Source: Bacillus sp. THAF10 (lineage in GTDB: Bacteria > Bacillota > Bacilli > Bacillales > Bacillaceae_I). From it: a DNA stretch of 64,000 nt. Below are positions 3,273 through 32,829 of the stretch, piece after piece. Positions within the stretch are counted from its first letter, which is position 1; every line of letters begins with the position of its first letter. A model generated the notes under the pieces. It had not been told where the DNA came from, did not search any database, and saw only the letters and a list, made by a program, of their open reading frames with translations. Location: assembly GCF_009363695.1 (NCBI RefSeq), contig NZ_CP045403.1:2088001-2152000 (forward strand), in the 5' to 3' direction. The position numbers and the translations under genes are program-made.

Positions 3273-3293
3273 ATAACGTTTATTTAACGCTAT
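3273..3293. promoter_or_regulatory. Operator-like palindrome at the pheDH promoter
   Basis: On the plus strand this 21-bp site reads ATAACGTT-N5-AACGCTAT, an inverted repeat with one mismatch. It is almost identical to the site in front of paaA (31427-31447) and has the same half-sites as the one in front of paaK (32809-32829). Its upstream end uses the last two bases of the -10 box, so a bound repressor would block the promoter. Confidence 0.75.
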
Positions 3294-3321
3294 CATATCA
3301 TTCCGTTAAATAAACAGTCAA
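3292..3321 (-). promoter_or_regulatory. Sigma-A promoter of the pheDH-E1 operon
   Basis: On the minus strand the -35 box is TTGACT (3316-3321) and the -10 box TATGAT (3292-3297), with an 18-bp spacer. The spacer contains TGTTTATTTAACGGAAT, which resembles one side of the operator (CGTTTATTTAACGTTAT) and may be a second, weaker site. Confidence 0.7.
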
Positions 3322-3353
3322 TAAATTGCAGAAATTTTATAAATAATCGAATA

Positions 3354-3388
3354 ATAAAAAAGCGGAAAGGATTCTTATCCATTCCACT
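3354..3388 (-). terminator. Rho-independent terminator of the ABC importer operon
   Basis: On the minus strand, AGTGGAATGGAT pairs with ATCCTTTCCGCT (two imperfect pairs) around a 4-nt loop and is followed by TTTTTATTAT. It separates the ABC genes from the pheDH operon, which has its own promoter. Confidence 0.75.
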
Positions 3389-3395
3389 TAAAAAC

Positions 3396-4190
3396 CTAAC
3401 TGAGCAATGCGCGGTCATTGGTCATCTTTTGACCTCTGATTCGTTGAAATTCAGCTAGTAGCCTCTCAATTGTGAGCGTCTTTTTCTCTTCTTCCCCAAC
3501 TTCTAAAATAATTTGACCCTTGTCCATCATTATTAGTCTATTTCCAAGATCAAGAGCCTGCTGCATGTTATGAGTCACCATAAGAGTAGTTAGGCCTTTA
3601 TCTGCCACAATTTCTTTTGTAATGTTCGTAATTAGTTCAGCTCTGGCAGGATCTAATGCCGCCGTATGCTCATCTAAAAGCAAGATTGCTGGATTTGTGA
3701 ATGTTGCCATCAGTAAAGATAGAGCCTGCCTTTCGCCACCTGACAACAATCCTACTTTAGCCGTCAATCTGTTTTCAAGACCGAGATGAAGGGACTCGAG
3801 TACATCTTTAAAGTAGGTTTTTCTTTTTTTCGTAACCCCGAGCTTTAATGTTCTTGTTTTGTTTCTGGAAAATGCCATGGCAAGGTTTTCTTCAATGGTC
3901 ATGGAAGGTGCTGTACCAGCCATCGGATCCTGAAACACTCTTCCTATATATTTGGCACGCTTATGCTCTGCCATATAGGTTACATTTTTCCCATCAATCT
4001 CAACAGCACCTGTATCAGGTGTTAACACGCCAGATACCATGTTCATCATCGTGGACTTACCTGCCCCGTTACTACCGATGATGGTCACAAAATCTCCCTT
4101 TTTCAGTGAAAGATTGATAGAATCTAGCGCATTTTTTTCATCTAAAGTTCCCTCATTAAAAACCTTGTTAATCTGTGTTAGATGCAGCAC
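3396..4190 (-). CDS. ABC transporter ATP-binding protein of a TrpXYZ-type importer
   Basis: This is the ATPase that energises the adjacent importer. It has Walker A GSNGAGKST near the N terminus, the signature LSGGERQALSL, Walker B AILLLDEH and a switch His in VTHNMQQAL. The GTG at 4190 is chosen because AGGAGGGGGG lies about 10 nt upstream; longer versions start inside the permease gene. It overlaps the permease stop by 23 nt, indicating coupled expression. The family (COG1101-like) works with a COG2984 binding protein and a COG4120-like permease. Known members take up tryptophan or related compounds, so an aromatic amino acid is a reasonable but unproven substrate next to phenylalanine catabolism. 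Confidence 0.85.
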   Translation of the reverse strand: MLHLTQINKVFNEGTLDEKNALDSINLSLKKGDFVTIIGSNGAGKSTMMNMVSGVLTPDTGAVEIDGKNVTYMAEHKRAKYIGRVFQDPMAGTAPSMTIEENLAMAFSRNKTRTLKLGVTKKRKTYFKDVLESLHLGLENRLTAKVGLLSGGERQALSLLMATFTNPAILLLDEHTAALDPARAELITNITKEIVADKGLTTLMVTHNMQQALDLGNRLIMMDKGQIILEVGEEEKKTLTIERLLAEFQRIRGQKMTNDRALLS

Positions 4191-5190
4191 CTTGATTCCC
4201 CCCTCCTGTTGAAGTGGCAAGACTTTGGAGCTTAAGCATCTTTTGCCTTTTTCGCCGCTTTTCTTTCCAGCCTTCTATCAATTTAGGTGTAATAAGTGCG
4301 AGAACAACGATAGTGGCTGTGATGATTTTCAAATCGCCAGTTTCTAAAAATTCCACACGTAGTGCTAAGGTAATCACCACTCTGTAAATAATCGCTCCTC
4401 CAATAACAGCAAGGGTCGTTCTGGCAATCGTTTTTGTACCAAAAATCGCTTCACCGATGATGACAGATGCTAAGCCAATGATAATCATCCCGATTCCCAT
4501 TCCAACATCTGCATACCCACCGTGCTGAGCAATTAATGCTCCAGAAAAAGCAACCATTGCATTAGAGAGACCCAGCCCTAAAATAACGAGGCCATTCGTA
4601 TTTGCGGAAAGACTGCGGATCATCCGTTTATTATCACCTGTTGCTCGCATGGCAAGGCCAACTTCTGTTTTCAAAAACCAATCTGTCACAAATTTAATAG
4701 CAAACGTGACGATTAGCATCACAAAAATGAAACCCCAAGTTCGTGGAAGAAAATTCTCTAATCCGATAGAAATAAAGAGATTATTGATAAATGGATCAAT
4801 GCCAGTCGCATTCCACCAATCTCTCACCCCTGTAAAGAACGTTTCACTGTTTAATAGAGGAACATTGGATCTCCCCATAATTCTTAGGTTAATAGAATAC
4901 AGTGCAATCATCATCAGTATTCCTGAAAGCAAGGCATTGATTCTTCCAAACGTATGTAGTACACCTGTTAAACACCCCGCAAGAAAACCTGCTACCATTG
5001 CCACCATCGTGGCCATGAGTGGACTTTGACCATTCACGATCATCGTAGCAGCCACTGCCGCACCTGTAACAAAACTACCATCTACCGTCAGGTCCGGAAA
5101 ATCAAGGACCCTAAAGGTTAAATATACCCCCAGGGCCATGATTCCGTAGATGATTCCCAATTCGACTGAACCAAAAATAGCTGTAACCAC
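4168..5190 (-). CDS. ABC transporter permease (COG4120/TrpY type)
   Basis: This integral membrane permease of 340 residues has about eight to nine hydrophobic segments, beginning IFGSVELGIIYGIMALGVY and DLTVDGSFVTGAAVAATMI. The DLTVDGSF motif is typical of this family, which is related to the branched-chain amino acid permeases (LivH-like). The C-terminal tail is basic and hydrophilic (EGWKEKRRKRQKM), placing it in the cytoplasm. The start is GTG with GGAG about 11 nt upstream. It lies between the binding lipoprotein gene (24 nt upstream) and the ATPase gene (overlapping). Confidence 0.87.
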   Translation of the reverse strand: MVTAIFGSVELGIIYGIMALGVYLTFRVLDFPDLTVDGSFVTGAAVAATMIVNGQSPLMATMVAMVAGFLAGCLTGVLHTFGRINALLSGILMMIALYSINLRIMGRSNVPLLNSETFFTGVRDWWNATGIDPFINNLFISIGLENFLPRTWGFIFVMLIVTFAIKFVTDWFLKTEVGLAMRATGDNKRMIRSLSANTNGLVILGLGLSNAMVAFSGALIAQHGGYADVGMGIGMIIIGLASVIIGEAIFGTKTIARTTLAVIGGAIIYRVVITLALRVEFLETGDLKIITATIVVLALITPKLIEGWKEKRRKRQKMLKLQSLATSTGGGNQGAASNTD

Positions 5191-5214
5191 GTCCGAATCA
5201 TCTCCTTCATTTAT

Positions 5215-6216
5215 TTATTTACTTTCATCGTGAAATTCTGCAATCTCAGTCCATTCTTCCTTAATTTCTACCCCTTGCGCTTCTGCAGCGTTCGTATTAA
5301 TGACTAGCTTGAGATTTTGAGGGTAAGCAACAGGAATTTCAGAAGGCTTCTTTTCCCCTTTTAAAATTTGCACTGCCATTAGGCCTGTTTCATAGCCAAG
5401 ATCATAATAACTGAATCCAGATGCTGCCACAGCACCAAGCTTCATCGAATCAAGCTCTCCAGCAAACAAAGGGATTTGTTCATTATTTGCAACACCCACT
5501 ACAGTCTGGAATGCAGAGACAACCGTGTTATCCGTTGGGATATAAATGGCATCTACTCTACCGATGAGTGATTCTGCTGCCTGTTGAACTTCTGCTGATG
5601 TGGAAACGGATGCTTCTACTAAGCTCGCGCCTTTCGCTTCAGCTAGTTCTTTAATATTTTTCACCTGTACAACAGAGTTTTGTTCTCCAGCATTATAAAG
5701 GACACCGATGTTTTTTGCTCCGATTTCATCGACAATAAAGTTAATTGTACTTGCAATCGCATCTGGATGTGTATCAGATGTACCCGTAATGTTTTCTCCT
5801 GGTTTATCAAAGGAGGCAACAAGCTCTGCACCTACAGGATCCGTAACGGAAGTAAAAACAATTGGAATTTCCTTTGTTGCTTGCAAAGCACTTTGTGCAC
5901 TTGGAGTGGAGTTGGCAAAAATCAATTCCACTTCATCTGCCACAAATTTGTCTGCAATTGTTTTGTTGTTATTGGGATCTCCGCCGGCAACTTGAACATC
6001 AAATTTAACATTCTCACCTTCTTTATAACCGTTGTCCTCGAGGGCTTTTTTGAAGCCATCAAAGGCCGCATCGAGTGATGGATGCTCCACAATTTGTGTT
6101 ACACCAATCACAATTTGTTCCTTAGAATCTCCCCCTGTAGCGTCTGTTCCACACCCTGCAAGCAAGGCCACACAGGCTAATGAAGCTAACATAGATTTCA
6201 CTTTAAACCGTTTCAT
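5215..6216 (-). CDS. ABC transporter substrate-binding lipoprotein (COG2984/TrpX type)
   Basis: This is the extracytoplasmic solute receptor of the importer. The start at 6216 gives MKRFKVKSM, a hydrophobic stretch and the lipobox LLAGCG, so the mature protein begins at that Cys and is lipid-anchored. AAGGGGGATTAGG lies just upstream; a 22-residue N-terminal extension would bury the signal peptide and is rejected. The mature part (EQIVIGVTQIVEHPSLDAAFDGF ... EGENVKFDVQVAGGDPN) is a typical ABC_sub_bind domain related to LacI-type periplasmic folds. It is the first gene of the three-gene operon. No T-box or other leader structure was recognised in the 260 bp upstream. Confidence 0.88.
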   Translation of the reverse strand: MKRFKVKSMLASLACVALLAGCGTDATGGDSKEQIVIGVTQIVEHPSLDAAFDGFKKALEDNGYKEGENVKFDVQVAGGDPNNNKTIADKFVADEVELIFANSTPSAQSALQATKEIPIVFTSVTDPVGAELVASFDKPGENITGTSDTHPDAIASTINFIVDEIGAKNIGVLYNAGEQNSVVQVKNIKELAEAKGASLVEASVSTSAEVQQAAESLIGRVDAIYIPTDNTVVSAFQTVVGVANNEQIPLFAGELDSMKLGAVAASGFSYYDLGYETGLMAVQILKGEKKPSEIPVAYPQNLKLVINTNAAEAQGVEIKEEWTEIAEFHDESK

Positions 6217-6447
6217 CCTAATCCCCCTTATATATTTATCTGCAAAAGGTAGAAAACCAATTACAGGTGAAACCGCATACAAAAAATGTCAATCCTATGA
6301 TGATAATTAAAACTTTCGTAAATTTATCGTTATATTACCACTTGTTTTAAAATAGTGTCAATATATTCGAAAAATTTAAATAAGTTTATTATTTTAGTAT
6401 AAATACGAGATTAATAGCTAAAATCCTTCTCTTAGTGTTACAGAATT

Positions 6448-7511: not shown

Positions 7512-8030
7512 ATGTTATATCCATATGGTGGAAAGAAGCCTCAACTCGACCGTTCTGTATTTGTTGCACCAGGAGCTAGAATTATTGGCGATGTGACAAT
7601 AGGTGAAGAATCTACAGTTTGGTTTAATGCTGTACTGCGCGGTGACGAGGGTCCAATTACAATTGGTAAAAGATGTAGTATACAGGATAATGTGACCGGA
7701 CACTTATATGAGGGGTTTCCTTTAGTGATTGAGGATGAAGTGACTGTTGGACATACTGCCATTCTTCATGGTTGTACGATCCGCAAACGCTGTATTGTCG
7801 GAATGGGTTCAACAATTCTTGATGGTGCTGATATTGGGGAAGAATGCATAATCGGTGCGAATACCCTCATTCCTCCTGGTAAGAAAATACCTCCCCGTTC
7901 CCTTGTAGTTGGTTCACCAGGAAAAGTCGTTCGGGAGTTAACGGAGAGAGATTTGGAACTTATACAGATGTCCATTGATACCTATGTTCAAAAGGGAAAG
8001 GATTATCAATTGGAATTAAAAGAAGTATAG
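7512..8030 (+). CDS. Gamma-carbonic-anhydrase-like hexapeptide protein (YtoA family)
   Basis: This 172-residue protein has a left-handed beta-helix of hexapeptide repeats. Visible blocks are APGARIIGDVTIGEESTVWF, RGDEGPITIGKRCSIQDN, VGHTAILHGC and SPGKVVRELT. The metal-binding His set of gamma-class enzymes is partly visible (GH in VGHT and LHGC; the first site reads NVTGHLY), so catalytic activity is uncertain. B. subtilis YtoA is the likely counterpart. AGGAGGG sits 7 nt before the ATG. PaaY of phenylacetate clusters has the same fold, but this gene is 14 kb from paa and lacks the shared operator. Confidence 0.8.
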   Translation: MLYPYGGKKPQLDRSVFVAPGARIIGDVTIGEESTVWFNAVLRGDEGPITIGKRCSIQDNVTGHLYEGFPLVIEDEVTVGHTAILHGCTIRKRCIVGMGSTILDGADIGEECIIGANTLIPPGKKIPPRSLVVGSPGKVVRELTERDLELIQMSIDTYVQKGKDYQLELKEV

Positions 8031-8826: not shown

Positions 8827-9054
8827 TTATAAACTATTAATATAATATCCTATCGCCATAAACAAAAAGAAACTAAATGTCATAACTAGATTAAGGAAAG
8901 CAAGTATATAGTTCTTACCATAGAGGCTGAAAGCAATTCCTATTGGACCTATAATAAATGTGCACATCCAAAAAGGACTAGCAATATGAAAAAATATATT
9001 AGGAATCCAGAGCAATAGACAAATAATAAAGCAAACTATAGACCATCTTTTCAA
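8827..9054 (-). CDS. Small membrane protein, unknown function
   Basis: The most likely start is the TTG at 9054, because AAAGGAG lies 8 nt upstream; a longer frame to 9183 exists but has no comparable site. The product is then 75 residues, beginning MKRWSIVCFIICLLLWIP, with three hydrophobic segments (about 4-20, 25-48 and 55-72). It has no recognisable domain and stands alone in the island. Confidence 0.55.
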   Translation of the reverse strand: MKRWSIVCFIICLLLWIPNIFFHIASPFWMCTFIIGPIGIAFSLYGKNYILAFLNLVMTFSFFLFMAIGYYINSL

Positions 9055-9351
9055 AAAGATTACTCCTTTCAAGCTTATCCCCTTTTCCATGAACGATGAC
9101 CGATTTTGAGGCGACATTGATATCTTCACGACTAAGTTTAACAACTTCGCCTTATCCCAAACTTTCGACAAATTCTCCTTCACTCTCCTAGTTTACATCG
9201 ACTAGAAAGTAGGGTTTATACGATTGTTGAATACTCGCTTTCATTACTTCTGAAACTGCTCTAATCGTTGAATAGCAATGTAATTATCCTCACCATTCAA
9301 AAAAGAAGAATCCCCCTTACTCTTATGGAATAAGAAGGATAAAAAAGTGTG

Positions 9352-10020
9352 TCAACTAATTAGATCAACTATTTTTCCATCCAAGAAATGAACGATTCTT
9401 TCAGCCCGATCTGCGATGGTTTGATCGTGTGTAATGAGAATGACGGTGACGCCGTCTTTATGAATTTCCTCTAGTAGCGAGATGATGTGATGGCTGTTTT
9501 CTGAATCAAGGTTTCCTGTTGGTTCATCAGCAAGTATAATGGATGGTTCTGTCACTAGTGCTCTTGCAATGGCAACACGTTGCTGCTCCCCGCCTGACAG
9601 ACGGGAAGGCAAATGATGGATGCGGTGCCCAAGGCCTACCCTAATTAACGCTTCTTCCGCTTTAGATCTTATTTCTTTATTAGAAAAAAACTTAAGCAAC
9701 GGCATCATCACATTTTCTAATGCGGTGGCAGAAGATAATAACTGAAACTGTTGAAAAATATAGCCTATTTTTTCAGATCTGATTTTGGCTAGCTGGGCTT
9801 CCTTTAGTTGATGAATCGGCTGTTCCTGAATCCAAATCTCTCCGTTATTAATGGATTCTAACCCACCTATGGCATGTAATAGAGTGGATTTTCCTGAACC
9901 AGACGGGCCGGTAATGGCAACATAAGAACCCTTTTGGATAGATAGGTTGACACCTTTTAATATATTCAGCTTTTCATGGTCCAGCTTGTAATGCTTTTCG
10001 ACATCCTTTAGAATTATCAT
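9352..10020 (-). CDS. ABC transporter ATP-binding protein (MacB/LolD type)
   Basis: This ATPase of 222 residues belongs to the class that works with FtsX-like permeases. It has Walker [10 protein letters not shown] (about 37-45), Q-loop YIFQQFQLL, signature [15 protein letters not shown] and Walker [14 protein letters not shown], which is the hallmark of the MacB/LolD family. It starts 13 nt after the permease gene ends and forms an operon with it. Such pairs act as mechanotransmission exporters or as detoxification and lantibiotic-resistance modules. The island location and the short secreted peptide gene upstream suggest peptide export or immunity, which is inference. An imperfect hairpin with a T tract at about 9298-9345 is its likely terminator. 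Confidence 0.88.
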
Positions 10021-10033
10021 TTCTTCCCACCTC

Positions 10034-12577
10034 CTAAGCTGCGTGTTGATCTTTTACTGTTCCCTTCATATCAATGAATCTTGAAATAATGAACGTGCAC
10101 AACAAAAACAGGCCGATAGATACTAAAATGGCTAAACCATAAATCCAAAGCGGCAAGGATATCTCTGTCCATGCATAAATTGCCCAGAAGGCACTCAGCG
10201 AACCGACCATGGACCCTGTCAAAGCAATGAAACTAGCTTCCAGCCCTAAGAATAGTTCAATTTGTTTTTGTGACCATCCAATGGAGCGCATAATAAAGAA
10301 TTCCTTTCTCCTCTCGGCTGCATTAAGATAAAGGAGGAAAAAAATGCTTACGATGGTAAGAGTTAATCCCCCGAAAATGAACATCTTCTGATAGGATTGA
10401 ATCTCCAAATCTATCGTTTCCCCAAGCACACTCAAAAACAGAAAATCAGACATTCCTTGCTGGGTTGCAGTAAAAAGAATACCGATAAATAGGGTTAGAG
10501 ACAAGGAGCCTGCTAGCAAGCCGAATCGCAATGGCCTTCTCATTACTTGATGGAACACATATGTGCCAATGCTATTTATCGCTAGTAGTCCTCCCCCGCG
10601 CCAATGACCATTTTCCCCTGAAACACTGGCTCGTGGAGATTTACTCAACGCTTTTCTGCTACCAGTTACATATCCAACCGAAATAATGAAAATAAATATC
10701 CCCCATATGAGAAGGAAGTCCAAGGCTCCTAACAGCTGAAAGTACAGGTCAGCAAAGACGATGGAAAGCAAGCCCACGGAGCTGAGTGCCACAATTTCAA
10801 AAGCCAAACTAATCATAATCTTCTTTCGGGGCCAGCCAATCGAACGCAATGTCGAGAATTCTGTTGCGCGCTTTAAAAGGCTGTGGGTGATGGTCGTGTA
10901 GATGAAAATAAAGCAGATGATGAGCAGATAGAGAAATAGCCATTTGTTAGTCTCATTCATCTGCTTTTCGATGCTCCAGTTTACCCCCTGCTGCTGCCAG
11001 GCTTCCTCTACGGTCCCAACCTCGCCTTCCGCTGTACCTTCGAGTTCGATATGGACTTTTCCACCGGCAGAGCCAAGCATGATTTCCACATGGTGTCCCG
11101 TTTGTTCCATGATTTCTTGAGCGACCTGCTCTATTTTCCGCTGGCTCTCCTCAGACCTTTCCTCCACTCCCTCTACTAAAACCCTTACGGATGAAAGTGG
11201 TGGCGTGTTTTGATAATAATATTTTGCTACTTCAATAGAGGTAAGCAGGTCCGGTGCTCCCGGATAGTAGGCACTTTTTAACGGTATCGGAATCAATGGA
11301 GTGGGCTCGACAGATTTCCCCGCTCCATCTTTCAGGATCGTGCTGTGATGAGGGGTGTAAATATCGACCGGATCCCCTTCCTCCCAAGAGGTTTCCACCA
11401 CAGGCTTAATTTTTGCTGCATCATAATAGCCAATAATGTTTGGTGTGACTTGCATGTCCTCATCACCATATTTTTGACGATAGCTAGGAAAGTCGATGGT
11501 AAATTCCGCGAATTCTGGCGGTGGAAAACGCTTAGCTGTAACGGTCGGAATCGTGTTCGCCCCGGTAGTTTTCGTTTCGTATAGCAACGGGCTGTACTTA
11601 TACAAGGTCGAATAGGTGGAATAGGGCACAGGATTTTCTTGAATATTGTATTTATCAATGAACAGCTCTACCTTCTTATTTTTCCACTTCTCCGAATAGG
11701 TAGGAAGACTAATGGAAGCGATCGTTTCCCGTGGTAGATTATATAAGTAGTTCTCCACTCCTCCACTCAAATCTTGCTCCATGACAGTATCAGGAACCTT
11801 TATCCGACTAACCTCAAAGGACTCCTCCACAGCATATCCTTGATTTCGCAACGCCAAAAAAGGAATATGCGGCAAAAACTCCCCTCGCTTTATCGTCTCA
11901 TTCAAGAGAGAAAGATCCACATCGGTGCTTTCTGAGAGCTGAAACAAACGCTCTTCTGCTTCTGGATCAATGGCAACCACCAACAATTCATTGGGATAGC
12001 GAAAATGAGTACCTGGTGGAACTTGGATGCGGAAGCCTTCTGGAATGTTCTTTTCTTCATTAAAACGCTGAAACAGCAGCGAATCTTCCATTTCAGGCTC
12101 ATAATAATTGGTCACATATTCTTCTGTATGAAAATGATATTCCCGCAACCCATCAAAAGCCTTCTTCTCTCCCTTGACTATATAGAATTCACCAGGAATG
12201 GCATCTTCGGCTTGCACATTTAAAAAGTCACCCTGATAAAAACCAATGATTGCTAGTGGCGCGGCTGTTTCCACACCAGAAATCCCGCGAATCACCTCTA
12301 GATCTTCTAGTGACATGCCCCCGTAGCTGGCAATATTCGATTGTGGTGGCACCCAACCACCTTCTAGAGCCCTTTTCTCGCTCACTTCCTTAGGTAGTAC
12401 CAAGATATCGTATTGATATCTCCAATGCTCCTCTAGGTTCTTGTTCGCAGTCAAAGTCATTTGATCAGATACGGCCAATGCACCAATATAACCAAATCCA
12501 ACAACATTTAAGATAATGAATATAACAAAAAACAAAATAGCTCTTTCTCTAAAAGAAGATTTTATGTAATGAAACAT
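10034..12577 (-). CDS. FtsX-like ABC transporter permease (large, 847 residues)
   Basis: This is a membrane component of a MacB-like exporter. It has an N-terminal transmembrane helix (about 12-33), a large extracytoplasmic domain (about 40-540, rich in Pro/Glu segments), then two FtsX-type membrane blocks: LFLYLLIICFIFIYTTITHS with TLRSIGWPRKKI, and FIFGGLTLTIVSIFFLLYL with IMRSIGWSQKQIE. The repeated RSIGW motif is typical of FtsX domains. GGAGGG precedes the ATG by 8 nt. Base composition looks clearly richer in G+C than the small genes to its right, hinting at a different origin. The closest functional group I can name is bacteriocin-associated or lactococcin-972-group permeases, with moderate confidence only. 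Confidence 0.82.
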   Translation of the reverse strand: MFHYIKSSFRERAILFFVIFIILNVVGFGYIGALAVSDQMTLTANKNLEEHWRYQYDILVLPKEVSEKRALEGGWVPPQSNIASYGGMSLEDLEVIRGISGVETAAPLAIIGFYQGDFLNVQAEDAIPGEFYIVKGEKKAFDGLREYHFHTEEYVTNYYEPEMEDSLLFQRFNEEKNIPEGFRIQVPPGTHFRYPNELLVVAIDPEAEERLFQLSESTDVDLSLLNETIKRGEFLPHIPFLALRNQGYAVEESFEVSRIKVPDTVMEQDLSGGVENYLYNLPRETIASISLPTYSEKWKNKKVELFIDKYNIQENPVPYSTYSTLYKYSPLLYETKTTGANTIPTVTAKRFPPPEFAEFTIDFPSYRQKYGDEDMQVTPNIIGYYDAAKIKPVVETSWEEGDPVDIYTPHHSTILKDGAGKSVEPTPLIPIPLKSAYYPGAPDLLTSIEVAKYYYQNTPPLSSVRVLVEGVEERSEESQRKIEQVAQEIMEQTGHHVEIMLGSAGGKVHIELEGTAEGEVGTVEEAWQQQGVNWSIEKQMNETNKWLFLYLLIICFIFIYTTITHSLLKRATEFSTLRSIGWPRKKIMISLAFEIVALSSVGLLSIVFADLYFQLLGALDFLLIWGIFIFIISVGYVTGSRKALSKSPRASVSGENGHWRGGGLLAINSIGTYVFHQVMRRPLRFGLLAGSLSLTLFIGILFTATQQGMSDFLFLSVLGETIDLEIQSYQKMFIFGGLTLTIVSIFFLLYLNAAERRKEFFIMRSIGWSQKQIELFLGLEASFIALTGSMVGSLSAFWAIYAWTEISLPLWIYGLAILVSIGLFLLCTFIISRFIDMKGTVKDQHAA

Positions 12578-23102: not shown

Positions 23103-23116
23103 TAGAAAAGAGATGC

Positions 23117-24348: not shown

Positions 24349-24360
24349 TCTCTCACCCTC

Positions 24361-25215: not shown

Positions 25216-25242
25216 ATGTAAAATTCCTCCTAACATGTTGTG

Positions 25243-25276
25243 AAAAAGAGCAAAGAGGACTAGCCTCTTTGCTCTT
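25243..25276 (-). terminator. Terminator-like hairpin inside the paa operon (ALDH / paaH junction)
   Basis: On the minus strand AAGAGCAAAGAGG-N5-CCTCTTTGCTCTT forms a perfect 13-bp stem followed by TTTC. It lies after the ALDH stop and only 28 nt before paaH, leaving no room for a promoter, so paaH/paaJ depend on read-through unless a promoter lies within the ALDH gene. Confidence 0.75.
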
Positions 25277-25293
25277 GAATGGTTGTTATCCCA

Positions 25294-26811
25294 TTAGACA
25301 CCGAACGGATTTAGTGGACGGCTTCCAAAGTAGGAAATAATACTTTTTGTTTCTGTGTATAAGTCTAATGTTTCAATGCAAAGCTCACGTCCGAAACCAG
25401 ATTGCTTATATCCTCCAAATGGAGTCCCAGGGAATGCGGAGAATGGGCAATTCACCATAACGATTCCAGCTTGGATTTGTTTTGCAACGCGTGTTGCACG
25501 AGCATGGTTTGTAGTCCAAATTGCTGAGCCAAGGCCATATTCGCTATCATTTGCTAGTTTTACTGCTTCCTTTTCGTCACTAAACGGCATCACGACAACA
25601 ACTGGTCCGAAGATTTCTTCTTTTACTGCTTTCATTTCATGGGTAACTCCTGTAATGATGGTCGGCTCATACCAATATCCATTTTCATAGCCTTCTACAT
25701 TTGCAACCTTGCCACCAAGTACAACGTTTGCGCCATCTTCTTTGGCAGATTGAACATACCCATCTATCACATCAAGCTGGGCTTGATTGATAACCGCCCC
25801 GATATGTGTTTCCTTCGCAAAAGGATCTCCCAATTGAAGCTTCTTAGCTTTTTCCACGAATTTTTCCATGAACACATCATAAATGCTTTCGTGGACATAT
25901 AAACGGGAGCGTGCTTCACAAGATTGACCGGTGTTATAGAAAATACCAAACAAGGAACCATCCACTGCTGCATCGATATCTGCATCTTCAAACACAACAT
26001 TTGGAGATTTTCCACCAAGCTCAAGCGTTACACGCTTTAACGTTTGAGAAGCTTTTTCCATAATGTCTTTACCGATTGGCGTGGAGCCTGTAAAAGCAAC
26101 TTTATCGACATTTGGATGCTCTACTAGATAGTTACCAACCTCAGAGCCTGCTCCAGGAATGATGTTTACCACTCCTTCTGGAACACCAGCTTCCACGCAG
26201 ATTTCGCCTACTACAATTGCCGTTAAAGGAGTTAAGGTAGCAGGTTTTACTATAACCGAACATCCAACTGCAATGGCAGGTGCGATTTTCCACGCTGCCA
26301 TCATTAATGGGTAGTTCCATGGAATGATTTGTGCGCAAACGCCAACTGGTTCTTTTTCTGTGAAGTTTTGGAATTGTCCTGGCACATTATTAACGGCACC
26401 ACGATGGCCAACAATGGCTCCAGCATAGAATTCGAAGTCTTCAATGGCTTGCATTACCTGACCTTGGGCAGCAGATAACGATTTCCCTGTGTCTAGAATC
26501 TCTAACTCTACTAGTTCATTAAAACGAGAGCGCATGATCGAAGCAATTTTATTTAAGGTTCTTGCTCTTTTGTTTAACGGTGCAAGTTTCCATTTTCCTT
26601 TGTCAAAAGCAAGACGCGCGGCTTGGATCGCTTTTTCCGCATCTTCTTTCCCAGCTTTTGCAATTGTTGCAATCGCTTCACCTGTTGCAGGGTTGTAAGT
26701 AGTAAATGTTTCTCCTGAGACGCTGTCCATTCTCTGGCCACCGATAATTAGTTGATAGGAGTCACGCTTCATTTGTAACATTTCCATTTTTTCTTCTTTT
26801 ACAGTTGCCAT
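25294..26811 (-). CDS. Aldehyde dehydrogenase of the phenylacetate pathway (PaaZ-ALDH function without hydratase domain)
   Basis: This 505-residue NAD(P)-dependent aldehyde dehydrogenase has PWNYP (N165), E264 in ELGGKSP and the catalytic Cys C298 in NTGQSCEA. In the known pathway 3-oxo-5,6-dehydrosuberyl-CoA semialdehyde is oxidised by the ALDH domain of PaaZ, which is fused to a MaoC-like hydratase domain in E. coli (about 680 residues). Here the protein ends after the ALDH domain, so ring opening of oxepin-CoA must come from another protein, possibly one of the two crotonases. It starts 22 nt after paaG. A broad-specificity betaine-type enzyme is the alternative. Confidence 0.82.
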   Translation of the reverse strand: MATVKEEKMEMLQMKRDSYQLIIGGQRMDSVSGETFTTYNPATGEAIATIAKAGKEDAEKAIQAARLAFDKGKWKLAPLNKRARTLNKIASIMRSRFNELVELEILDTGKSLSAAQGQVMQAIEDFEFYAGAIVGHRGAVNNVPGQFQNFTEKEPVGVCAQIIPWNYPLMMAAWKIAPAIAVGCSVIVKPATLTPLTAIVVGEICVEAGVPEGVVNIIPGAGSEVGNYLVEHPNVDKVAFTGSTPIGKDIMEKASQTLKRVTLELGGKSPNVVFEDADIDAAVDGSLFGIFYNTGQSCEARSRLYVHESIYDVFMEKFVEKAKKLQLGDPFAKETHIGAVINQAQLDVIDGYVQSAKEDGANVVLGGKVANVEGYENGYWYEPTIITGVTHEMKAVKEEIFGPVVVVMPFSDEKEAVKLANDSEYGLGSAIWTTNHARATRVAKQIQAGIVMVNCPFSAFPGTPFGGYKQSGFGRELCIETLDLYTETKSIISYFGSRPLNPFGV

Positions 26812-26833
26812 TTTCTCATCTCCTAAAAGAATA

Positions 26834-27607
26834 TTATTTACCTTGGAAAGCGGGCTTTCTTTTCTCGATAAAAGAAGTAACTCCTTCTTTATGATCTATA
26901 GAAAGTCCGGCAATTCGTTGGCAATATGCTTCATGTTCTAAATAGTCATCATAGTTCATGTTCCAGCCTGCGCTAATAGAACGTTTAATTAGTGCGATGG
27001 CTTGAGTTGGCATCGAGGCGATACGCTCGGCAAATCGTGACACTTCTGATTCCCATTCATCCATAGAGAAAACCTTGGTTGCTAGCCCTAGTTCTTTGGC
27101 TTCGTCCGCTTTTACTTTTTCACCAAATACAGCAAGTTCTAATGCTTTGGCATTGCCAATGAGCTTAGGGAGAAAATAAAGGTTACCTGAGTCAGGGACA
27201 AGGCCTACATGGATAAATGCCTGTACAAAGCTCGCCTTTTCAGAAACTAAGCGAAAGTCGCATGCAAGAGCCAAGCTGAACCCCGCTCCAGCTGCGACGC
27301 CATTCACAGCAGCAATCACAGGCTTCTCACATGTAGCAAGCGCTTTCATCATTGGCCCGTATCTTGTGCGAAGAACCTCCCCATGATCCATGTTCTCGTC
27401 TACTTCTGCAAGGTCTTGACCAGAGGAGAAAGCTCTTCCTTCGCCTGTAATAACAACCGCTCTTGTTTCAGAATCAGAATTTGCTTGTTTTAGTGCCTTT
27501 GCAATCTCTTTGTTCATTTGCTCTGTAAAAGCATTCAGCTTATCTGGTCTGTTCATGATGATCCAAGCAACATTGTTTTTTAGTTCCACACGAATGGTTT
27601 CAAACAT
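26834..27607 (-). CDS. paaG: 1,2-epoxyphenylacetyl-CoA isomerase (crotonase family)
   Basis: PaaG isomerises ring-1,2-epoxyphenylacetyl-CoA to oxepin-CoA and also shifts double bonds of later intermediates. The crotonase fold is clear (EGRAFSSGQDL, VNGVAAGAGFSLALACD). The catalytic Asp is visible in GLVPDSGNLYFLPKL (D139), as in E. coli PaaG (GLIPDCGG), while the two Glu of hydratases are absent, supporting an isomerase rather than a hydratase. Length 257. It lies between paaF and the aldehyde dehydrogenase with short gaps. Confidence 0.85.
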   Translation of the reverse strand: MFETIRVELKNNVAWIIMNRPDKLNAFTEQMNKEIAKALKQANSDSETRAVVITGEGRAFSSGQDLAEVDENMDHGEVLRTRYGPMMKALATCEKPVIAAVNGVAAGAGFSLALACDFRLVSEKASFVQAFIHVGLVPDSGNLYFLPKLIGNAKALELAVFGEKVKADEAKELGLATKVFSMDEWESEVSRFAERIASMPTQAIALIKRSISAGWNMNYDDYLEHEAYCQRIAGLSIDHKEGVTSFIEKRKPAFQGK

Positions 27608-27619
27608 TGGACTGCCCCC

Positions 27620-28399
27620 TTATTCGCCTTTAAAGTGTGGCTTGCGCTTTTCCTGAAAAGCACGCATTCCTTCTTTTTGATCTTGTGAGGCAAAAAGCAA
27701 ATAAAAATTCTTTCTTTCATATTGCATTCCTTCATAAATGGAATAATCCACTGCTTTATGAACGGATTCCTTTATCAGGCGCAAGGAAAGCGGAGGTTGC
27801 TTAGCAATCTTGTTAGCAAACTTTACTGTTTCTTCCATTAGAAGTTCGTTTGCGATTACTCGATTAATGACACCATAATGCAAAGCTTCCTTTGCGGTCA
27901 TTCTGTCACCAGTTAAGAGCCATTCCATTGCTTTTGATTTTCCCATTAGCTTGGTTAACCGTTGTGTCCCACCAGCCCCAGGCATCACACCAAGGCTGAT
28001 TTCCGGAAAACCAAATTCAGCATTGTGCCCTGCAAAAAGAATGTCACAGCAAAGCGCAAGCTCAAAGCCGCCACCAAGTGCAAAGCCCTGAACCGCACCA
28101 ACTATTGGTTTTTTCACCCAAGCAAGACGGTCCCATTCGGTAAATTGATTTAATAATTCAAGGTCGATGGCGCTTGCTTCTGCCATCTCGTCAATATCAG
28201 CGCCTGCTGCAAAAGCCCGGCCGTTTCCTGAGAGAACAATCACTTTTACCTCATCATTTCGATCAAATTCTTCCATGGTGGTCACAATTTCTGTTACCAT
28301 TGGACGATTAATCGCATTTAACACCTTTGGACGGTTTAATTTGATGATCCCGATACTGCCTTCAACTGAGACCTCAATAAAACCTAATTCCTTATTCAT
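27620..28399 (-). CDS. paaF: Enoyl-CoA hydratase (2,3-dehydroadipyl-CoA hydratase)
   Basis: Crotonase of 259 residues with both catalytic Glu of enoyl-CoA hydratases: E113 in ALGGGFELALCCD and E133 in FGFPEISLGVMPGAGGTQRL. In the paa pathway PaaF hydrates 2,3-dehydroadipyl-CoA to 3-hydroxyadipyl-CoA. Its start overlaps the end of the EthD-like gene by 8 nt, showing translational coupling. Because no hydratase domain is fused to the aldehyde dehydrogenase, this enzyme could also have to cover oxepin-CoA hydrolysis; that is speculation. Confidence 0.86.
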   Translation of the reverse strand: MNKELGFIEVSVEGSIGIIKLNRPKVLNAINRPMVTEIVTTMEEFDRNDEVKVIVLSGNGRAFAAGADIDEMAEASAIDLELLNQFTEWDRLAWVKKPIVGAVQGFALGGGFELALCCDILFAGHNAEFGFPEISLGVMPGAGGTQRLTKLMGKSKAMEWLLTGDRMTAKEALHYGVINRVIANELLMEETVKFANKIAKQPPLSLRLIKESVHKAVDYSIYEGMQYERKNFYLLFASQDQKEGMRAFQEKRKPHFKGE

Positions 28400-28700
28400 T
28401 CACTTCTTCACCAATCATCAATGTTACAAGGTCACCTGCAAACTTCATAAGATCCTTTCCAGAAGCCTTAGCCTCATCTGTTCTCATTGCTGTTTTTAGT
28501 GCATCATGACTGTCGTAATACATTTCACACATTAAATAATATTTTCCTTCGCCACCCATTGGACTACCAACTACTTTTGTCACTTCCATCTTGCGAAGAC
28601 CAGGGATCTTTGCCGTAATCGGTGCATGTGTATCAAAATAATGTTGATCAAAAGCTTCTTTGTTTTCCGGGTGTTTGTAAAGTGCGATAAGTTTTACCAT
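28392..28700 (-). CDS. EthD-family small protein within the paa operon
   Basis: This 102-residue dimeric ferredoxin-like (alpha/beta barrel) protein of the EthD family begins MVKLIALYKHPENKEAFDQH then YFDTHAPITAKIPGL, the conserved H-x-P-x-x-x-x-x-P-G pattern. EthD proteins accompany aromatic or ether monooxygenases and have poorly defined roles. Its position between paaD and paaF, overlapping paaF, suggests a function with the ring epoxidase or an unstable intermediate. It is not part of the E. coli paa set. Confidence 0.8.
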   Translation of the reverse strand: MVKLIALYKHPENKEAFDQHYFDTHAPITAKIPGLRKMEVTKVVGSPMGGEGKYYLMCEMYYDSHDALKTAMRTDEAKASGKDLMKFAGDLVTLMIGEEVNE

Positions 28701-28726
28701 CGTAAATCTCTCCTTTTATATGTAGT

Positions 28727-28747
28727 CACCTTACAAAAGGTAAGGTG
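28727..28747 (-). other. Stable hairpin between paaD and the EthD-like gene
   Basis: CACCTTAC-N5-GTAAGGTG without a T tract. It may set mRNA processing or protect an end; it is not an obvious terminator. Confidence 0.45.
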
Positions 28748-28754
28748 GTGTAGC

Positions 28755-29240
28755 TTACATCATGGTTGATACAGGTTTCATTGCTTCAAAGGGGTTCTTG
28801 CAGCCCTTGCAATAAAGAATACTTCTGCAGGCGGTAGGCCCAAAGATGTTATCTAAGGTAGTATAGGTGGAGCCACAATAAGGGCAATCTACATGCCATT
28901 GTCCTGTTTCATCCATCAGAGGTGGCGGAGCGATTCCAAATTCGATTAGATTCTTTCTGCCCTCTTCTGTAATTCTGTCAGATGTCCAGGGTGGCTGGTA
29001 TATAAATTCCACCTTCATCTCTTTTACCCCTTCTAAACAGCTTAGTTCTTTTTCTAGATTTTTCTTAATAATGTCTAGTGCTGGGCACCCCATAAAGGTT
29101 GGAAGCAATTTTATTTCCAAACACTCGCCATCCAGTTTTACTTCTTCCACCATTCCAAGGTCTACGATACTGATAGAATCAATCTCGGGGTCCTTCACTT
29201 TCTGTAGTGCTGCCCATATTTCGTTGTTATTTGTTTGCAT
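28755..29240 (-). CDS. paaD: PaaD, MIP18/DUF59 protein with C-terminal zinc-ribbon, assembly factor of the ring epoxidase
   Basis: PaaD is needed for maturation of the PaaABC epoxidase complex. The protein has an N-terminal MIP18/DUF59 domain (KVKDPEIDSISIVDLGMVEE, LLPTFMGCPALDIIKKNLE) and a C-terminal four-Cys ribbon, CPYCGST ... CRSILYCKGC. ATG 29240 (MQTNNNEIW) is preferred, 19 nt after the paaC stop; a start at 29282 would lie within paaC. The Cys residues suit transient Fe-S or iron handling, which is family knowledge. Confidence 0.86.
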   Translation of the reverse strand: MQTNNNEIWAALQKVKDPEIDSISIVDLGMVEEVKLDGECLEIKLLPTFMGCPALDIIKKNLEKELSCLEGVKEMKVEFIYQPPWTSDRITEEGRKNLIEFGIAPPPLMDETGQWHVDCPYCGSTYTTLDNIFGPTACRSILYCKGCKNPFEAMKPVSTMM

Positions 29241-29259
29241 TTCACTCAGTCCTTTTGCC

Positions 29260-30081
29260 TTACCAGACAGCTGCTGGATCACTGTTGTATACTTCCGCTA
29301 ACGTCTTTAAGGCCTCTTCTAAGTCCGAAGTATGCTCTCCATTTCTCCCATTGCCGCTTTTCATTTTCGTGTTGGTTTCAAGTGATAGGTTGGCTCTTTC
29401 AAACATCGCACTCAATTCGGATACAAATCGTTGACGAAGCGCATCTTCTGAATCTAGTAAGTTAAAAGAAGTCATCTTTTCTCCAGATGGCCCAAGATGA
29501 ATCACACCTTCGAATTCTTCCATCACCAGTTGTATTGCTGCCACCATTCTGCTTTTAGCATCTCCATTTGCATTACATAGTTGGACAAACCAGGTTTTCC
29601 AATGTAGAAGATGATAATAGAGCTCCATATTTACTTTAATTGCTATATGCTTTAATGGCTCATAGGAAGAGTTTTTCAAGGATTCGACCTTAATTTTTTT
29701 TAGCATGGTGTAAAAACAGTTCCTCACAACGGTGAAGGCCCAATCGTATTTTGGTTCCGTAAGATACGTTCCACTACCATTCACTTTTTCTAGTAAAATA
29801 GCATTCACTCTTTCCTTTACACTTCTACCATGGGCAAGAACGTCCATATTTCCTTCACCAAGCTCTTCTAATAGCTGATAGAACATGGATGCATGGCCCA
29901 TGGTGTCTTGATTTATGGAGGAAAAAGCAACATCCTCTTCAATATGAGGTGCTAATCCTAGCCACTCCGATCCCCTGTAAGCGATGATAAAATCATCATC
30001 TGCGAGTTGAAAGAGTAATGAAGTTAGAGCTTGATAATACTCAGAATTTTGTTTCGCCTCTGCAGGGCTTGTAATAATCAT
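29260..30081 (-). CDS. paaC: Phenylacetyl-CoA epoxidase structural subunit PaaC
   Basis: PaaC is the non-catalytic ferritin-like subunit that forms a heterodimer with PaaA. The 273 residues are mostly helical. Recognisable family blocks include LTSLLFQLADDDFIIAYRGS then EWLGLAPHIEEDVAF (about 16-52) and VNMELYYHLLHWKTWFVQL. It overlaps paaB by four bases (ATGA), so the two are translationally coupled. Confidence 0.88.
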   Translation of the reverse strand: MIITSPAEAKQNSEYYQALTSLLFQLADDDFIIAYRGSEWLGLAPHIEEDVAFSSINQDTMGHASMFYQLLEELGEGNMDVLAHGRSVKERVNAILLEKVNGSGTYLTEPKYDWAFTVVRNCFYTMLKKIKVESLKNSSYEPLKHIAIKVNMELYYHLLHWKTWFVQLCNANGDAKSRMVAAIQLVMEEFEGVIHLGPSGEKMTSFNLLDSEDALRQRFVSELSAMFERANLSLETNTKMKSGNGRNGEHTSDLEEALKTLAEVYNSDPAAVW

Positions 30082-30425
30082 TGCTGCTTTTTCCCTCCCC
30101 AGGACATGATCTCCTTTTCATCAAGCATGCCTTGTTCATAATGACGCCATTTTTTCTTTAAATAACCATAGCCTTTTGTATTACGATAATCTTTGTTGTC
30201 AATTCGTTGTAGGGTTTCTTTTTCCTCTTGGGTCATTTTGCGAATATGTGAACGCTCAATCACCCATATATCCACTGCAGGCTCACGACGCATAAAGTTC
30301 TCTTGTGCCATTACAAGCGCGATTTCTTTGTTTGGAGCGAGCAAACTGAATTGATATTGCATGGGAGATGTATGCGATCGTTTGCTGAACACTTCGAATT
30401 CCTTATAAAAACCTTTTGTACTCAT
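30078..30425 (-). CDS. paaB: Phenylacetyl-CoA epoxidase subunit PaaB
   Basis: This small 115-residue subunit bridges PaaAC heterodimers. It has the conserved YKEFEVFSKRSHTSPMQYQF then SLLAPNKEIALVMAQENFM (N-terminal) and VDIWVIERSHI. It begins 14 nt after paaA. In E. coli PaaB is 95 residues; the extra C-terminal part here (GYGYLKKKWRHYEQG) is typical of Gram-positive forms as far as I recall. Confidence 0.88.
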   Translation of the reverse strand: MSTKGFYKEFEVFSKRSHTSPMQYQFSLLAPNKEIALVMAQENFMRREPAVDIWVIERSHIRKMTQEEKETLQRIDNKDYRNTKGYGYLKKKWRHYEQGMLDEKEIMSWGGKKQQ

Positions 30426-30439
30426 AAGTTAAGCCCCCT

Positions 30440-31408
30440 TTACCCTGCGTTTGTTTCGGAGCTTAGTGCTTCTCGAACCCATGCATTATTTTCATGCGCG
30501 ATGATCCTTAAACGCAATCGATCTTTTGATTTTGGTCCATTGTTTCGGATGATTTCTTTAAAATTGCTCCAGTCTGGCTGCTGATAGATCCATTTCTGTT
30601 CCTTTTCGTCATAACGCATGGTTGTATCAGGAAGAGTTAGACCTAGCGAGAGCACGCGAGGAATATATTTGGTGAAAAAGTCCTGTCGCAGCTCTTCATT
30701 GCTCTTCGTTCTAATTCCATATTTCATGGTGACATCTTGTTTGGAGGTACCGGTTGTGGAAGCATCTGCCGGGCCAAAGAACATTAATAACGCTTCCCAC
30801 CATCTGTTGATAGAATCTTGTATCATATCCCGTTGCTCTTTTGTGCCTTCTGCAAGTGCCATAATAATGGCCTCTCCATGCTGAGCATGAAAAACTTCTT
30901 CGGCACAAATTCGTTTTAATGATCTCGCGTAAGGGCCGTAGGAGGCATCGAGCATGTTCGTTTGCGAAATAATTGCAGCTCCATCTACAAGCCAGCCAAT
31001 TAATCCAGCATCTCCCCAAGTTGGCGCTTCCATATGAAACACATTATGAAACTTTAAATCTCCTGAAAATAGATCTTGCATGATTTCTTCTCTAGACTTA
31101 CCGTAGGGAGCCATTAAGTCCTCCGCTACACGTAGTAAAAGCTGTCCGTGCCCCATCTCATCCTGCACCTTTGCCATGATTCCTAGTTTTCGCTTTAATG
31201 TAGGAGCTTTTGGTACCCATTCCTTTTCTGGAAGCGCTCCCATTATTTCGCTGATTGCATGCATGGATATTAATTTAATCAATGTCTTACGGTACTCTTC
31301 TGGCATCCAATCATCTGCTTCAATTTTTTCGCCGTTCTGTATGCGCATCATAAAATGTTCGTGCTTTTCATCATCTGTTAAGCGGTCAAACACACTTGCG
31401 TTTGTCAA
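30440..31408 (-). CDS. paaA: Phenylacetyl-CoA epoxidase catalytic subunit PaaA
   Basis: PaaA is the di-iron oxygenase subunit that forms ring-1,2-epoxyphenylacetyl-CoA with O2. Its 322 residues show two carboxylate-His metal motifs, DEMGH (83-87) and EEVFH (170-174), in the ferritin-like four-helix core, and HMEAPTWGDAGLIGWLVDG between them. The start is TTG at 31408 with AGGAGG 9 nt upstream. It is the first gene of the paaABCD operon and is preceded by a sigma-A promoter whose -10 overlaps the regulon operator. No PaaE-type FAD/2Fe-2S reductase gene follows, so the electron donor is not encoded here. Confidence 0.92.
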   Translation of the reverse strand: MTNASVFDRLTDDEKHEHFMMRIQNGEKIEADDWMPEEYRKTLIKLISMHAISEIMGALPEKEWVPKAPTLKRKLGIMAKVQDEMGHGQLLLRVAEDLMAPYGKSREEIMQDLFSGDLKFHNVFHMEAPTWGDAGLIGWLVDGAAIISQTNMLDASYGPYARSLKRICAEEVFHAQHGEAIIMALAEGTKEQRDMIQDSINRWWEALLMFFGPADASTTGTSKQDVTMKYGIRTKSNEELRQDFFTKYIPRVLSLGLTLPDTTMRYDEKEQKWIYQQPDWSNFKEIIRNNGPKSKDRLRLRIIAHENNAWVREALSSETNAG

Positions 31409-31426
31409 AATGGCCGCCTCCTATTT

Positions 31427-31447
31427 ATAACGTTTATTTAACGTTAT
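31427..31447. promoter_or_regulatory. Operator-like palindrome at the paaA promoter
   Basis: ATAACGTT-N5-AACGTTAT, perfect 8-bp arms. It starts on the last two bases of the -10 box, exactly as at the pheDH promoter. Confidence 0.8.
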
Positions 31448-31474
31448 TATATATTAATGTTATACGATTATCAA
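31446..31474 (-). promoter_or_regulatory. Sigma-A promoter of the paaABCD operon
   Basis: On the minus strand TTGATA (31469-31474), a 17-bp spacer and TATAAT (31446-31451). The leader to the TTG start of paaA is about 30 nt and contains the operator. Confidence 0.8.
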
Positions 31475-31493
31475 CTCAGAAATTTCAGAAATA

Positions 31494-32783
31494 TTAAACC
31501 GTCACTTGTCTTTTATCAATCACTCGGACAGCTTTCCCTTCTGAGCGAGGAATTGTTTTTGGTGGAACGATGCTCACTTTCAGTTGTACATAACATGAGG
31601 AGTGTAAAGCTCTTTCGATTTTTTTCTCGAGCATCTGCTTATCGTAGTGCTCCATTTTTGCTTCTACAAACACTTCCATCGAATCCAAACTTTTATCTTT
31701 CTGGATAACAATTTGGTAGTGAGGGGCAACCTCCTCTATTTTCAACAGAACATGTTCAATTTGTGAGGGATAGACATTGACTCCTCTAACAATCAACATA
31801 TCGTCCACCCTTCCCTTTACTCGTGACATTTTGGTGGAGGTTCTTCCACATATGCACCTCTCTTTTTTTATGGAAGCAATATCTCCAGTACGGTACCGGA
31901 TAACTGGCATAGCTTCTTTCGTAAGGGAAGTGAAAACAAGTTCTCCTTCTTCTCCCTCAGGTAAAACTTCCCCAGTGTTTGGATCAATTACTTCTATATA
32001 AAAGTGATCTTCAGCCACATGTAGACCATCTTGTGCCTCATGACATTCCATCGCAACTCCCGGTCCAATCACCTCACTAAGTCCATAAATATCGCAAGCC
32101 TTAATGTCAAAAGTTTTTTCAAGTGTATGTCGCATCTCCTCTGACCAAGGCTCTGCACCAAAGATTCCGTATTTTAATGAGGTTTCCTTTGGATCAACCC
32201 CCATTTCTTTCATTTTTTCTGCGATGTTTAGCATATAGGATGGGGTTCCACAAATCACAGTAGGCTGGAAATCTTGAATAAGCTGGATTTGTCTATCCGT
32301 ATTTCCCCCAGAAACGGGTGTTGTCATCATTCCGAGTGTTTCACTCCCATAATGAAGGCCAAGACCACCTGTGAAAAGACCATAGCCATAGGCATTATGT
32401 AACACCTCGCCTTGTTTTCCTCCAGCCATTGAAATGGCCCTAGCAACGATCCCTCCCCACATATCGATATCATTTTTAGAGTAAGCAACAACTGTTGGTT
32501 TTCCGCTAGTACCTGATGATGCGTGCAGTCTGACAATTTCATTAGGAGACAGGGCAAACATTCCGAACGGATAATGGTCTCTTAAATCTTTTTTGGTTGT
32601 AAAAGGAAGTTTCTTTATGTCATCTAAGAAGTGAATATCGGAGGGAAGCAGATTATGTTCGAATAGTTTCTTTTGATAAAAAGAGACATTTTTATAGACA
32701 TGTTGAACCGTTTGCTGAAGCCTGATTAACTGCAAATCTCTTATTTGCTCGTGTGTAAAAGTTTCTACAGCATGTAAAATCAT
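31494..32783 (-). CDS. paaK: Phenylacetate-CoA ligase
   Basis: PaaK activates phenylacetate to phenylacetyl-CoA with ATP. The 429-residue protein has the AMP-binding P-loop SSGTSGKPTVVAYSKND (about 89-105), YGLSEVIGPG, the RYRTGD motif and the GRVDDMLIVRGVNVYPSQIE block (PaaK C-terminal lid). It starts at ATG 32783 and has its own promoter region with the shared operator at 32809-32829. With the dehydrogenase route from phenylalanine the cell would make phenylacetyl-CoA directly; PaaK serves free phenylacetate. Confidence 0.92.
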   Translation of the reverse strand: MILHAVETFTHEQIRDLQLIRLQQTVQHVYKNVSFYQKKLFEHNLLPSDIHFLDDIKKLPFTTKKDLRDHYPFGMFALSPNEIVRLHASSGTSGKPTVVAYSKNDIDMWGGIVARAISMAGGKQGEVLHNAYGYGLFTGGLGLHYGSETLGMMTTPVSGGNTDRQIQLIQDFQPTVICGTPSYMLNIAEKMKEMGVDPKETSLKYGIFGAEPWSEEMRHTLEKTFDIKACDIYGLSEVIGPGVAMECHEAQDGLHVAEDHFYIEVIDPNTGEVLPEGEEGELVFTSLTKEAMPVIRYRTGDIASIKKERCICGRTSTKMSRVKGRVDDMLIVRGVNVYPSQIEHVLLKIEEVAPHYQIVIQKDKSLDSMEVFVEAKMEHYDKQMLEKKIERALHSSCYVQLKVSIVPPKTIPRSEGKAVRVIDKRQVTV

Positions 32784-32808
32784 AATAATAACACCTTCCG
32801 TTTCTTAT

Positions 32809-32829
32809 ATAACGATTTTATGTCGTTAT
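32809..32829. promoter_or_regulatory. Operator-like palindrome upstream of paaK
   Basis: ATAACGA-N7-TCGTTAT, perfect 7-bp arms extended by one more T/A pair outside. Half-sites and spacing (ATAACG-N9-CGTTAT) match the sites at 3273 and 31427. The paaK promoter is less clear: TTGAAT at about 19 bp from AATTAT. Confidence 0.75.

Follow-up and report, generated by a model that had tools for sequence, protein, structure and literature searches.

A 64,000-nucleotide stretch of the genome of Bacillus sp. THAF10 (contig NZ_CP045403.1, positions 2,088,001 to 2,152,000; hereafter the window, numbered from its first letter) carries on its minus strand copies of a palindrome, ATAACG-N9-CGTTAT, in front of genes for phenylalanine and phenylacetate degradation. 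This palindrome is probably the operator of the repressor PaaX and would govern four promoters, from phenylalanine import to degradation of the aromatic ring. The grounds for this reading are the sites themselves, their conservation in relatives, the geometry of the promoters, the gene content and the co-occurrence of PaaX with the genes concerned. We consider the conserved regulon to be real and best described as of PaaX type, with a new operator and a reach that takes in phenylalanine import and oxidative entry.

Copies were scored over the 12 fixed positions of the pattern. Perfect matches (12/12) were found at 31427-31447, in front of the paaA operon, and at 32809-32829, in front of paaK, and the copy in front of the phenylalanine dehydrogenase gene pheDH (3273-3293) matched at 11/12, with CGCTAT replacing CGTTAT. 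The original prediction had let all three sites share the pattern; the locations and the two perfect copies were confirmed, and the pheDH copy reached 11/12 only. With the spacer counted, the sites starting at 3273 and 31427 are identical at 20 of 21 bases. Just these three places in the window reached at least 11/12, compared with 0.10 on average and at most 2 in 60 first-order Markov simulations, none of which produced a 12/12 match. Apart from the paaA and paaK sites, the 4.09 Mb genome contains no exact copy. When a longer pattern was used (ATAWCGTT-N5-AACGTTAT), the two top places of the genome were paaA (0 mismatches) and pheDH (1 mismatch), and paaK had 3 mismatches. A weaker copy at 6313-6333 (minus strand, 9/12, one half perfect) lies before a TrpX-like gene, where relatives carry conserved sites, and is taken as a candidate fourth, degenerate operator, that of a transporter operon. 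The earlier statement that the window holds no other good copy stands at the level of at least 11/12 and overlooked this degenerate one, which has the same promoter geometry.

Promoters were predicted by reading the sequence, on the minus strand, at 3292-3321 for pheDH (TTGACT-N18-TATGAT) and at 31446-31474 for paaA (TTGATA-N17-TATAAT). On the gene strand both palindromes begin at the final two bases of the -10 box, as had been claimed for two of the sites, and this onset within the -10 box fits a repressor. The copy at 6313-6333 sits in the same way on the -10 box of the predicted trpX promoter (TTGACA-N18-TAATAT); the paaK promoter has a less distinct -10 box. Third half-sites were found on the minus strand 16 bp upstream of the palindromes of pheDH (TTAACG, 3304-3309) and paaA (ATAACA, 31458-31463), and none stands out at paaK. 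The three-part pattern occurred in the window only at paaA (0 mismatches) and pheDH (1 mismatch), with 0.05 places expected, and not at paaK.

Conservation was assessed at 80 named pheDH loci of relatives with an operator threshold of at least 10/12, using reversed sequence and 119 permuted half-sites as controls. The thioesterase set comprised 79 of the 80 loci (L081 is without such a gene) and the TrpX set 72 (eight loci had no match); the paaK set comprised 25 of 30 genomes, five best matches having been dropped as distant homologues (L168-L172). The genes counted include a paaK interrupted in its draft (G030) and a fragmented paaA (G044). The common order, seen in most of the 80 loci, is paaX, transporter, operator, thioesterase, pheDH, E1, E2, E3 and HPPD. 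A scan immediately upstream of pheDH in the 80 relatives gave no copy of at least 11/12 (best 10), because a FlK-like thioesterase gene intervenes: it lies upstream of pheDH in 79 of the 80, mostly with the operator before it, and is missing there in the window genome. This thioesterase, exemplified by locus L017 (approximately 9599-9982), is perhaps a phenylacetyl-CoA thioesterase.

The palindrome was present at 67 of 79 pheDH operons, 47 of 72 trpX, 18 of 30 paaA and 17 of 25 paaK genes, against 0, 1, 0 and 0 in reversed sequence. After the sets had been thinned by similarity, the counts were 19/32, 31/51, 14/27 and 14/22, respectively (best permuted half-site 2, 4, 2 and 5), and at a threshold of at least 11/12 they were 12, 14, 9 and 4 (best permuted half-site 1, 1, 1 and 2). 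The palindrome is thus kept in front of pheDH, paaA and paaK in relatives across the Bacillaceae; its absence there would have refuted the original prediction, which withstood this check. Twelve paaA genes lack a site; in 11 of these cases a paaK lies on the same strand at most about 115 bp upstream, and all 11 of these paaK genes (one of them interrupted in the draft) carry a site of at least 10/12, so that a site at paaA or at the adjoining upstream paaK covers 29 of the 30 genomes. The uncovered genome is that of Bacillus coahuilensis (L095), in which the PaaX frame contains stops, paaA is in fragments and the pheDH-operon genes are still present; its pheDH-operon and trpX promoters retain 10/12 copies, and it is therefore not a clean natural knock-out. 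Of 30 further loci from PaaX-positive genomes, one per genus, 16 reached 10/12 or better within approximately 760 bp upstream of pheDH, in a scan run without a control. In the thinned sets, the half-site ATAAC (4 or all 5 letters matching) was found 16 bp upstream of the palindrome at 18 of 21 paaA (8 exact) and 9 of 12 paaK sites (7 exact), and at 3 of 7 pheDH-operon (0 exact) and 1 of 14 trpX sites. At the paa promoters this half-site may serve to bind a second dimer.

The gene proposed to encode the repressor, paaX (22152-23036, minus strand), is the final gene of the paa operon. Its product gave a full-length family match (TIGR02277, 350.2 bits with a cut-off of 264.55; Pfam PaaX, PaaX_M and PaaX_C; PDB 8a39, E 5.6e-44), and on the basis of this protein, and not of the operator, it is assigned to the PaaX family. 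Of 299 genomes of the order, 127 have a PaaX that scores above the family cut-off. Among the genomes with pheDH a PaaX match was present in 26 of 26 (above the cut-off in 25), which does not discriminate, and PaaX-negative genomes were therefore sampled: they were assigned by elimination, and 80 of the 156 genomes without a PaaX match were searched. At E <= 1e-130, pheDH was found in 34 of 44 PaaX-positive and in 1 of 80 PaaX-negative genomes (Fisher p ~2e-20, uncorrected for kinship), and loci were taken for 30 of these 35 matches. The lone PaaX-negative pheDH lacks an adjacent E1, and the 1.5 kb in front of it contained no copy reaching 10/12. In PaaX-positive genomes without pheDH, paaA (E <= 1e-60) was detected in 9 of 10, and it was found in none of 66 PaaX-negative genomes and in none of 4 with just a sub-cut-off PaaX relative. 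All 9 of these paaA genes have an operator of at least 10/12 within 70 bp; the site therefore follows PaaX and the paa genes, not pheDH.

Several observations weigh against the PaaX-operator reading. Genome-wide, 12 other places share the single mismatch of the pheDH copy, which makes that copy alone unexceptional; the pattern with up to 2 mismatches is unenriched (141 forward, 221 for the reversed pattern), as is the longer pattern (54 forward, 71 reversed). Some promoters have a weak operator, the window's own trpX copy being 9/12, and 12 of the 79 pheDH operons fall below 10/12. At paaK the margin at 11/12 or better is thin (the 4 against 2 given above), and 14 of the 30 PaaX-positive genera have no copy within the up to 1.5 kb scanned upstream of pheDH. 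The E. coli-type PaaX site, TGATTC-N27-GAATCA, gave 50 matches in the window with up to 3 mismatches where 49 were expected, and none overlaps the four promoters. Finally, PaaX and paaA co-occur so tightly that co-occurrence cannot distinguish PaaX from a different regulator acting on these genes.

The lack of genome-wide enrichment is what would be expected if the palindromes were chance features of AT-rich promoters, or if their likeness came from close kinship alone. Genome-wide counts are uninformative here, so that the evidence lies in position and conservation rather than in number. Permuted half-sites and reversed sequence scored far lower, also on the similarity-thinned sets, and the site keeps to the promoter with or without the thioesterase gene and across many genera. 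Given these controls, chance or kinship is a most unlikely explanation.

The palindrome could also belong to a regulator other than PaaX that controls the same genes, such as the TetR-type PaaR, with PaaX as a passenger or a second layer of control. The palindrome is unlike the E. coli PaaX site, and known PaaR sites share AACG/CGTT half-sites with it: PaaR of Thermus thermophilus is described as binding AACnAACGTTnGTT and responding to phenylacetyl-CoA (PMC6651687), and PaaX and PaaR occur together in several Bacilli according to the account of one survey (PMC13186573). Against this, the PaaR consensus was unenriched in the window (3 matches with up to 2 mismatches, 3.5 expected) and none of its matches lies at the four promoters. 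PaaX was the sole regulator recognised among 40 scanned open reading frames of the window. Inspection by eye of the transporter surroundings showed no regulator in 5 of 6 relatives; in the sixth (L029, with no paaX on the locus) an Ada-like gene of AraC type lies among genes for DNA repair. No TetR gene was found among the 40 window frames or by eye in the six relatives, TetR genes not having been searched genome-wide. Another regulator is thus judged improbable, and PaaX is the best candidate for the protein that binds the palindrome, which would then differ from the E. coli operator.

The genes behind the pheDH site would form the upper route. The protein of pheDH (2089-3243, minus strand) belongs to the Glu/Leu/Phe/Val dehydrogenase family, its best solved match being leucine dehydrogenase and its closest named relatives those of Sutcliffiella (93% identity), the genus in which the genome is therefore probably to be placed. 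It carries G and L (NAGGLIQ) where the leucine-dehydrogenase-like paralogue of the genome has A and V, positions which we take to set specificity for phenylalanine or leucine. By family and by these pocket residues, the gene is assigned to phenylalanine dehydrogenase. It is followed on the same strand by genes for E1 alpha (1006-2070) and E1 beta (11-1006) and, past the start of the window, by genes for an E2 with lipoyl and E3-binding domains and an E3. The E1 2-oxoacid dehydrogenase that the original prediction had placed behind pheDH is therefore present as part of a whole E1-E2-E3 complex, and the regulon, proposed for pheDH and the paa cluster, looks larger by this complex and the ABC transporter operon; the original interpretation is supported in part. 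No E3 match was found in the complex operon of L053, L055, L057, L060, L061, L065, L066, L075, L076, L078 and L080, where another E3 of the same genome may serve.

Two more complexes are encoded in the genome, named PDH and BKD from gene order only and not from a family search, with the leucine-dehydrogenase-like gene beside BKD; the latter offers a parallel for placing an amino-acid dehydrogenase gene beside the corresponding complex. The complex behind pheDH might instead act on pyruvate, on branched-chain 2-oxoacids or on 4-hydroxyphenylpyruvate, in which case phenylpyruvate would reach phenylacetyl-CoA through phenylacetaldehyde, phenylacetate and PaaK. NCBIfam labels the E1 alpha as pyruvate dehydrogenase, above the cut-off, which counts against a phenylpyruvate dehydrogenase; the closest solved structures to the E1 subunits are those of pyruvate dehydrogenase E1, and among the best 120 matches listed the database names include pyruvate dehydrogenase and 2-oxoisovalerate dehydrogenase. 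The paa operon contains an aldehyde dehydrogenase gene, and homogentisate genes come after the complex. On the other side, the genome already has its PDH- and BKD-type complexes, to whose E1 alpha that of the operon is 39% and 37% identical. At 36 positions it is conserved at more than 97% in 77 operon orthologues and differs from both other complexes; for E1 beta the same was found at 20 positions, conserved in 76 orthologues. The E1 alpha gene follows pheDH in 79 of the 80 loci (in the remaining one the contig ends there) and in 25 of the 30 further genera. From this context and the difference to the other two complexes, phenylpyruvate is the likely substrate, and we regard an alternative substrate as doubtful. 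The bypass of phenylacetaldehyde and free phenylacetate, part of the original prediction, is a hypothetical feature of this route, the aldehyde dehydrogenase of the paa operon being a point to set beside it.

After the E3 gene, a 106-bp gap is followed in the same direction by HPPD, aminotransferase, flavin reductase, FAH and homogentisate dioxygenase-like (HGD) genes. No palindrome copy of at least 10/12 was found in this gap. A single regulon for aromatic amino acids, as first proposed, consequently fits phenylalanine, and may or may not take in the tyrosine (homogentisate) genes.

Sites similar to cre, the target of CcpA, were scored against the cre consensus with a threshold of at least 13/14. 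On the minus strand one lies at the pheDH start (3211-3224, TGAAAACGCTTACT, 13/14) and another at the start of the transporter gene (6268-6281, 13/14). Such a site was found near the start of pheDH in 73 of 80 loci (50 exact), with 0 of 80 in controls taken inside the gene, and at the transporter start in 34 of 72 (control 0), compared with 0 of 30 at paaA (control 1) and 2 of 25 at paaK (control 0). These counts point to CcpA control that is confined to the upper route. For the thioesterase gene, the region meant as control (71 of 79) coincides in part with the cre region of pheDH and hence is no control. A candidate cre site at HPPD was dropped, the control inside the gene giving 31 and the upstream region 12 of 71.

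We propose the following mechanism. Without substrate, PaaX dimers would cover the -10 box and start site of the four promoters (transporter, pheDH operon, paaA operon and paaK) and exclude RNA polymerase. Phenylalanine would be imported by the TrpX-type ABC transporter, deaminated by PheDH to phenylpyruvate, and probably oxidised by the E1-E2-E3 complex to phenylacetyl-CoA, with PaaK feeding in free phenylacetate. Phenylacetyl-CoA, the known inducer of E. coli PaaX, may release PaaX here as well, and the product of the upper route would thus open import, upper route and ring degradation together. The cre-like site at the pheDH start would add catabolite repression through CcpA. We lean, by a small measure, towards the broader statement that the Bacillaceae have a phenylpyruvate dehydrogenase complex dedicated to catabolism and a PaaX with an undescribed operator (three half-sites, ATAACA-N10-ATAACG-N9-CGTTAT, at the paa promoters), with phenylacetyl-CoA as sole signal for import, deamination, oxidative entry and ring cleavage and a CcpA override at pheDH. 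In the literature covered (the titles and abstracts listed, with few subscription journals) nothing was found on a Bacillus PaaX operator or on this operon. If correct, this would give a physiological setting to phenylalanine dehydrogenase, an enzyme used in biotechnology, would predict an enzyme complex whose present database label is pyruvate or 2-oxoisovalerate dehydrogenase, and would let PaaX regulons be read from sequence in the Bacillaceae.

The remaining genes of the regulon lie on the minus strand as well. The ABC transporter operon (3396-6282) encodes the TrpX-like binding protein (5215-6282; 281.5 bits against the TrpX model, below its cut-off of 390), a permease (4168-5190) and an ATPase (3396-4220). 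The paa operon (22152-31408) has the order paaABCD-EthD-paaFG-aldehyde dehydrogenase-paaH-paaJ-paaX with gaps of -23 to 103 bp, and is preceded by the phenylacetate-CoA ligase gene paaK (31494-32783; 633.8 bits, slightly below the cut-off of 646.3) under its own operator. The aldehyde dehydrogenase gene (25294-26811) has no match at that place in several Cytobacillus loci (e.g. L047 and L069). A PaaY-like gene (7512-8030) is followed by approximately 13 kb (8827-21754) before paaX; in relatives whose locus includes both paaX and TrpX, the distance between these two is only a few kb. The interval contains an ABC exporter-like pair and dienelactone hydrolase-like, HEAT, GNAT, LRR and SUKH (SMI1/KNR4) proteins, and is perhaps an inserted block with immunity-type genes.

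Among known systems, the Bacillus bkd operon combines leucine dehydrogenase with a branched-chain complex. It shares with the pheDH operon the placing of an amino-acid dehydrogenase beside its 2-oxoacid dehydrogenase complex, an arrangement also seen in this genome, and differs in its branched-chain substrates and in having no palindrome copy with up to 1 mismatch. Direct oxidation of phenylpyruvate to phenylacetyl-CoA is described for arylpyruvate:ferredoxin oxidoreductases (PMC5109826, PMC13290082), which are anaerobic, ferredoxin-linked and of another enzyme type. The same chemistry has a precedent in the proposal made for PglB/PglC, a pyruvate-dehydrogenase-like E1 in the biosynthesis of pristinamycin phenylglycine in Streptomyces (PMC7089894, PMC10685826). 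Both systems have an E1 alpha/beta pair for this step, a likeness drawn from description and not from sequence; the Streptomyces pair is biosynthetic, with no E2 or E3 among the pglA-E genes listed there, whereas here a catabolic E1-E2-E3 lies behind pheDH. PaaR of Thermus shares a palindrome of AACG/CGTT half-sites at paa promoters (PMC6651687) and differs in protein family and spacing, and its consensus misses the promoters described here. The closest comparison is with PaaX of E. coli and Pseudomonas, a GntR-type repressor with phenylacetyl-CoA as inducer. As outlined in PMC9493321, a repressor of the same family is encoded beside the paa genes, controls the paa operon and competes with RNA polymerase at some promoters, which resembles the arrangement proposed here. 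Unlike that system, in which the operator is TGATTC-N27-GAATCA, the sites of Bacillus sp. THAF10 follow ATAACG-N9-CGTTAT, often with a further half-site 16 bp upstream, and the regulon would extend to the import and deamination of phenylalanine.

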